DNA of 49,581 nucleotides from IMG/VR virus record IMGVR_UViG_3300033145_000268, positions 1 through 49,581 of that record. The stretch is one strand, 5' to 3'. Below, in pieces: positions 20,722 to 20,853 of the stretch. The notes beneath the pieces are model-generated. The model did not search any database. It worked only from the letters and a program-made list of their open reading frames with translations, and had not been told where the DNA came from. Each line of letters starts with the position of its first letter. Positions within the stretch are counted from its first letter, which is position 1. Position numbers and translations under genes: made by a program. The stretch comes from a virus.

Positions 20722-20853
20722 ATTAGGTAGTGAAACAAGGCTTACTTCGTCTATTAAACGAAAGGTTGTAGGTTCGAATCCTTCTCCCCCCGCATCTTGG
20801 GGGGATAGCTCAAATGGTAGAGCATTTTTATGCCTCGTTGATTTTCTCCTAAT
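20722..20853 (+). ncRNA. Y-RNA-like element 5 with circularly permuted tRNA
   Basis: 132 nt. Outer ATTAGG/CCTAAT (20722-20727, 20848-20853), GGTAGTGA, AACAAGGC/GCCTCGTT (20734-20741, 20832-20839), TTAC. Insert order: anticodon-like arm TTCGT-CTATTAA-ACGAA (20746-20762), variable AGGTT, T arm GTAGG-TTCGAAT-CCTTC, acceptor 3' strand TCCCCCC (20785-20791), 7-nt loop GCATCTT, acceptor 5' strand GGGGGGA (20799-20805), D arm GCTC-AAATGGTA-GAGC (20808-20823). All tRNA arms are there, starting between positions 26 and 27. Confidence 0.85.

Follow-up and report, generated by a model that had tools for sequence, protein, structure and literature searches.

A Ro60-linked Y RNA element of a phage with a complete, circularly permuted tRNA-like head

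YrlA, a bacterial Y RNA with a PDB entry (6CU1), imitates three arms of tRNA (D, T and acceptor) and undergoes modification by both DusA and TruB, and a Y RNA is known to tether Ro60 to PNPase (reviewed in PMC8394870). Circularly permuted tRNA genes have been described in algae and in one archaeon, where they involve bulge-helix-bulge (BHB) motifs, the splicing endonuclease and cleavage at the acceptor (PMC3978253). The locus analyzed here lies in a viral record (IMG/VR record IMGVR_UViG_3300033145_000268), the whole 49,581-nucleotide stretch of which is referred to as the window, and which contains 27 tRNA genes. The window also encodes a Ro60 protein, the expected partner of its Y RNAs; of the five Y elements, the first lies in the leader of the gene and the other four on its 3' side:

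18642-18705, plus strand: Y element 1, without a tRNA module (repeat family D1; fold of -23.2 kcal/mol)
18714-20258, plus strand: gene for a 514-aa Ro60/TROVE-vWA protein (Pfam TROVE, E 1.4e-16; Ro60 vWA, E 8e-7; PHROG 850, RNA-binding protein)
20296-20371, plus strand: Y element 2, without a tRNA module (common GGTAGTGA...TTACTTC and ...TTTTCTCCCAA)
20385-20494, plus strand: Y element 3, with a degenerate tRNA-like domain inside (RF00005, 30.6 bits at 20404-20471; fold)
20505-20712, plus strand: Y element 4, comprising several hairpins, with no tRNA module recognised (repeat D1; fold)
20722-20853, plus strand: Y element 5, a Ro-type stem with a permuted tRNA (Rfam YrlA, 35.6 bits at 20722-20856; covariance model R1, described below, 81.9 bits at 20743-20824)

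All five elements share GGTAGTGA...TACTTC and most of them the closing TTTTCTCC, and element 5 is the only one with a complete tRNA module. It lies on the same strand as the Ro60 gene, as is expected of bacterial Y RNAs in the broad sense, and its ends pair as outer and inner stems bearing the motif common to the array. Y element 1 ends about 10 nt before the Ro60 start codon, a position from which Ro60 could regulate its own translation. In Y element 3 the T arm is perfect and the remaining tRNA-like fold is weak and in normal, unpermuted order; it may be the decayed remnant of a linear tRNA in a Y stem. Elsewhere in the window, a full-length GroEL-like chaperonin is encoded on the minus strand (2211-3797; Pfam Cpn60, E 1.3e-42; PHROG 5725, E 1e-107), and the listed start of an HNH endonuclease ORF (21027-21503) falls inside a tRNA-Pro gene (21013-21084), the true start being probably further down.

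Every tRNA part that the initial annotation had attributed to element 5 could be located in its sequence, in the order 27 to 72, a 7-nt loop and then 1 to 26 of the tRNA numbering:

20722-20741, plus strand: 5' strands of the outer (20722-20727) and inner (20734-20741) Y stems, with the GGTAGTGA motif; they pair with 20848-20853 and 20832-20839
20746-20762, plus strand: anticodon-like hairpin, positions 27-43, loop CUAUUAA (31-39 pair conserved among relatives)
20763-20767, plus strand: variable loop AGGUU, positions 44-48, with U48 matching A15 (15-48 covariation)
20768-20784, plus strand: T arm, positions 49-65, loop UUCGAAU, one U-U mismatch (sequence; R1 alignment)
20785-20805, plus strand: acceptor hairpin, positions 66-72, loop GCAUCUU, positions 1-7 (7/7 pairs; all seven change on both sides among relatives)
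20806-20824, plus strand: U8 and A9, D arm (positions 10-25, GG in the loop) and A26 (sequence; R1 alignment)
20832-20853, plus strand: 3' strands of the inner and outer Y stems, ending TTTTCTCCTAA (repeat D1 motif; fold)

The outer stem is ATTAGG/CCTAAT, with a GTAGTGA-type motif next on the 5' side, and the inner stem is AACAAGGC/GCCTCGTT with one A-C mismatch; GATTTTCT lies between the inner 3' strand GCCTCGTT and CCTAAT, and in most relatives, too, the inner helix abuts TTACTTC. Within the head, the anticodon-like arm UUCGU-CUAUUAA-ACGAA has five of five pairs and U33, and the acceptor UCCCCCC/GGGGGGA has, as first described, all seven pairs closed by the 7-nt loop GCAUCUU. The D arm reads GCUC-AAAUGGUA-GAGC in RNA (GCTC-AAATGGTA-GAGC in DNA). 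The T arm GUAGG-UUCGAAU-CCUUC is likewise present, with four of five pairs, the initial annotation having passed over a U-U mismatch at 50-64. The T loop UUCGAAU and the GG-bearing D loop are present as candidate sites for TruB- and Dus-type modification. The chain opens between positions 26 and 27, where, as had been proposed, the Ro-type helix is attached: UUAC separates the inner stem from the anticodon-like arm, TTTTTAT separates A26 from the inner 3' strand, and inspection of this junction by eye, with UUAC facing UUUUUAU between inner stem and tRNA core, revealed no clear bulge-helix-bulge. When the halves are rejoined in normal order and a CCA tail is added for the test, ARAGORN calls a tRNA-Asn(att). 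The tRNA-like fold has a folding energy of -36.5 kcal/mol versus -38.0 kcal/mol for the minimum free energy fold, in which the T and anticodon arms are misplaced; thermodynamics alone is the weaker support, and the case for element 5 rests on conservation and not on folding energy.

Apart from tRNA itself, the best Rfam family for element 5 is YrlA (RF02553), to which it aligns end to end with 35.6 bits (E 1.8e-5), below the gathering score of 69 bits. A likeness to YrlA, as suggested from the outset, is borne out by this full-length, sub-threshold alignment. T arm, acceptor hairpin and D arm follow one another in the permuted order of YrlA, and the closing helix by which YrlA joins D arm to variable loop without an anticodon hairpin is absent from element 5; the cmscan fit leaves 15 nt (UUCGUCUAUUAAACG) as an insert, and those nucleotides are part of a covarying 5-bp hairpin. 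None of 18 sampled bacterial loci of the element 5 design reached the YrlA gathering score, and a BLASTN search of E. coli with the Rfam consensus of YrlA found none.

Viral contigs and the genomes of bacteria and archaea were scanned for relatives with the pattern TTACTTCG...GGTTCGANTCC...TAGNTCA, and the resulting counts are lower bounds, to be read as "at least". Since TTACTTCG, the T loop and some of the D arm are fixed by the pattern, those letters provide no independent evidence, and the acceptor strands were left free. An initial Y-motif pattern was too loose, gave mostly chance matches and later served as control. Tandem tRNA genes imitate the permuted order as weak matches and were excluded by acceptor pairing. 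Viral contigs searched with the Ro60 of the window gave no match, an alignment of eight Ro60 proteins contained no stretch conserved enough to serve as search query, and BLASTN of the region against phages returned tRNA genes only, among the matches listed.

The initial annotation had named the loss of acceptor and T-arm pairing in homologues as the outcome that would speak against a permuted tRNA. Acceptor pairing at six or more of the seven positions was instead found in 225 of the 267 distinct pattern matches listed, versus 17 with shuffled partners, and it is also kept in phage G, Atuin, BRock and csAssE-Sib, which were selected for their Ro protein alone. A Ro60 gene is present in 163 of the 198 loci listed (74/94 viral and 89/104 bacterial; controls, 8/116), and it is on the same strand as the element in 184 of 184 matches listed. 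Record titles among those listed cover Bacteroidetes, Firmicutes, Actinobacteria, Proteobacteria, Chloroflexi, Acidobacteria, Verrucomicrobia and Planctomycetes.

A covariance model (R1) was built from 45 phage and bacterial relatives, thinned to less than 85% identity and with the window excluded. It matches element 5 with 81.9 bits (E 3.2e-19), as compared with 41.3 bits for the best tandem tRNA gene pair of the window. Elements picked by Ro60 similarity scored 66 and 59 bits in Streptomyces phage BRock, 57 in Bacillus phage G, 55 in Arthrobacter phage Atuin, 49 in Brevundimonas phage Domovoi and 43.5 in csAssE-Sib; the last two values come near to, or fall within, those of tandem tRNA pairs, and csAssE-Sib was accepted on its Y stem and position. 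Among the 45 relatives, 97.7% of cells are paired versus 73.8% in shuffles, 254 cells have changed on both sides versus 84 (score 0.66 versus 0.18), and pairing falls to 26-49% when the partner is slid by 1 to 3 columns. Compensatory changes affect all seven acceptor pairs and three T-stem pairs, the D-stem letters being mostly set by the search pattern and hence uninformative on covariation. Pair 31-39 is Watson-Crick in 125 of the 127 relatives listed (about 41 when shuffled), and in the viral set listed it takes all four Watson-Crick forms (CG 27, AT 20, TA 10 and GC 7). Outside the secondary structure, D-loop position 15 covaries with variable-loop position 48 (G-C 166, A-U 56 and other 2 among the matches listed). 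This is the Levitt pair of tRNA, and it connects parts that lie at opposite ends of the permuted chain. Anatomy, conservation and Ro60 linkage are in this way established by comparison among relatives.

From these data we infer, with a probability of roughly two in three, that the Ro60 of the phage binds element 5 as one of its Y RNAs, and that the sealed head, a whole tRNA in shape, serves to dock proteins that recognise tRNA. The Y stem (GGTAGTGA...TTTTCTCC) would be the handle bound by Ro60, and the head folds as a whole tRNA whose chain is open at 26/27, where the stem attaches. Since a loop seals the acceptor end, the RNA would be neither charged nor used in translation. With Ro60 gripping the stem, the tRNA-shaped head may dock modifying enzymes (TruB, Dus) or a nuclease partner (PNPase), and the Ro particle might thereby be directed towards structured RNAs, or kept away from them, in the course of infection, most likely working as is thought for other tRNA-mimicking Y RNAs. 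Binding by Ro60, modification, docking and the role in infection are all, in this sense, predictions from comparative data.

Against this proposal stands the anticodon hairpin, which is superfluous for a pure D/T/acceptor mimic and yet is kept in most relatives. Among the 127 listed elements of standard geometry, U33 is present in 120 and a purine at position 37 in 125; a looser count (at least four pairs, U33 and purine 37) gives 137 of 225 listed relatives. G37 goes with G36 (both in 26 of the 127 listed elements, only one of them in 4 and 3, neither in 94; Fisher p 1e-19, to be read loosely because the sequences are not independent), and the ordinary tRNAs of the same loci show the same tendency (G36G37 116, G36 without G37 74 and G37 without G36 27). 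U36 is enriched among the matches listed (0.64 versus 0.36 in real tRNAs of the same loci). Given that the anticodon loop obeys tRNA rules, it is attractive to regard the hairpin as the working part, a bait for host tRNA-cutting nucleases (phage-defence anticodon nucleases or toxins) that is held by Ro60 and unusable by the ribosome. Several such elements, often beside tRNA arrays, occur in some phage loci; Hughes et al. have been cited in favour of this view, and a similar idea has been raised for Salmonella YrlA (PMC7790460). Nevertheless, we regard the bait as a possible but unlikely explanation. The design occurs in the genomes of bacteria as well, csAssE-Sib lacks the hairpin, Atuin and Domovoi have a non-standard one, and fragments of Salmonella YrlA were not detected when tRNAs were cut (PMC7790460). 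Moreover, the loops spell 37 different anticodons among the matches listed (GUU being the commonest and AUU that of element 5), which argues against any single target. It is no less speculative to postulate that Ro60 Y RNAs might be a platform for the whole tRNA fold, anticodon included, mounted at the acceptor end (linear forms), at the 26/27 junction (element 5) or at the anticodon loop (Rfam YrlA), and that the anticodon-bearing forms of phages could be decoys or sensors for tRNA-cutting enzymes.

A sealed mimic must also be weighed against a permuted tRNA gene, in which RNase P and RNase Z would cut in the acceptor loop and rejoining at 26/27 would yield a working tRNA. No part of a tRNA is missing, and the rejoined chain is accepted by ARAGORN, but the acceptor is closed by no more than 4 nt in 77 of 225 listed relatives, 21 of which carry UUCG or GNRA tetraloops, and an RNA sealed in this manner can carry no CCA. 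The phage already has a normal tRNA-Asn, the anticodon AUU would place at position 34 an A that is unusual for bacterial Asn, and the 5' anticodon strand TTCG is invariant while the anticodon changes; the known cases are, in addition, those of algae and one archaeon, dependent on BHB motifs and the splicing endonuclease (PMC3978253). The closed acceptor (7-nt loop here, at most 4 nt in a third of the relatives listed) hence makes a mimic far likelier than the precursor of a working tRNA, and we consider the latter improbable. The earlier suggestion that RNase P or RNase Z might open the element into a two-piece tRNA is accordingly not supported as a general rule, and may apply to a minority with long loops: acceptor loops of at least 10 nt occur in 51 listed relatives, are in part A/U-rich and begin with A-C in 30 of the 51, which, together with the ACCA encoded by phage G, suggests that some may be cut. 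In Bacillus phage G (L132, 328-428), the permuted tRNA within the Y stem encodes ACCA, with an A/U-rich stretch of 21 nt between it and the 5' acceptor strand, and this element would be the best candidate for a cleavable form. In a similar vein, several Chryseobacterium loci (L256, L257, L281, L284, L290 and others) keep A-C as the first letters of an acceptor loop that measures about 11-25 nt and otherwise drifts, as though selection acted on the discriminator and C74.

Finally, a functionless relic, two half tRNA genes left over from tandem tRNAs, may be set aside as very improbable and as accounting at most for the origin of element 5, for although tandem tRNA genes alone match YrlA (28 bits) and R1 (41 bits) weakly, the spacer GCATCTT resembles nearby inter-tRNA spacers and the 3' half is similar to the tRNA-Asn of the phage (28/35), the conservation data contradict it: the two halves form 7/7 acceptor pairs, a Y stem flanks them, and more than 150 loci have this design beside Ro60, with compensatory changes.

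Complete linear tRNA-like genes were also observed inside Y stems. Two are found in csAssE-Sib (L002, 3640-3770 and 3785-3910), where they are annotated as tRNA-Tyr and tRNA-Lys, and others in L036, L061, L165, L168, L182, L193, L196, L210 and L239. TTACTTC stands directly before the acceptor strand or overlaps it, some of these genes end in CCA, and ARAGORN assigns them ordinary as well as odd anticodons (TTA, TCA and ATC). In two further loci (L356, 5415-5575, and L128, 5045-5180), weak Rfam tRNA matches extend over long insertions beside permuted elements, possibly reflecting a model that joins parts of neighbouring Y elements. In phages, parts of Y RNAs can be mistaken for tRNA genes by tRNA finders.

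Bacterial Y RNAs have been described as mimics of the D, T and acceptor arms, and the design of element 5 is that of a complete mimic, with an anticodon hairpin and a covarying tertiary pair. It spans phages and several bacterial phyla and is missed by the curated Rfam model in the loci sampled, raising the question of what might recognise this anticodon loop when the RNA that bears it cannot be charged.

Compared with known systems, element 5 resembles the permuted tRNA genes of algae and an archaeon in having the 3' half ahead of the 5' half, and differs from them in that the Ro stem occupies the junction and the acceptor is closed. With tmRNA it has in common a tRNA-like domain within a longer non-coding RNA, with T-loop and D-loop features, but tmRNA has a free, charged CCA end, which element 5 lacks. 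The Y RNAs of Deinococcus and animals similarly have a base-paired stem that holds Ro60, and act beside or with it; they are more closely resembled by elements 1, 2 and 4, and their heads are not known to contain a whole tRNA. The closest relative is YrlA (Salmonella YrlA, PDB 6CU1), with the same Ro60-linked stem, the same order of T arm, acceptor hairpin and D arm and the same sealed acceptor. In the Rfam consensus, on which this comparison rests, a 4-bp helix stands directly after the D arm and directly before the variable loop, without an anticodon hairpin; by its position, this helix is the anticodon stem, its loop opened by the Y stem. The chain is thus opened inside the anticodon stem in Rfam YrlA and at 26/27, with the anticodon hairpin intact, in element 5. 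A YrlA-type Y RNA with a tRNA-mimic module is an already known kind of molecule, of which element 5 is a fuller form.
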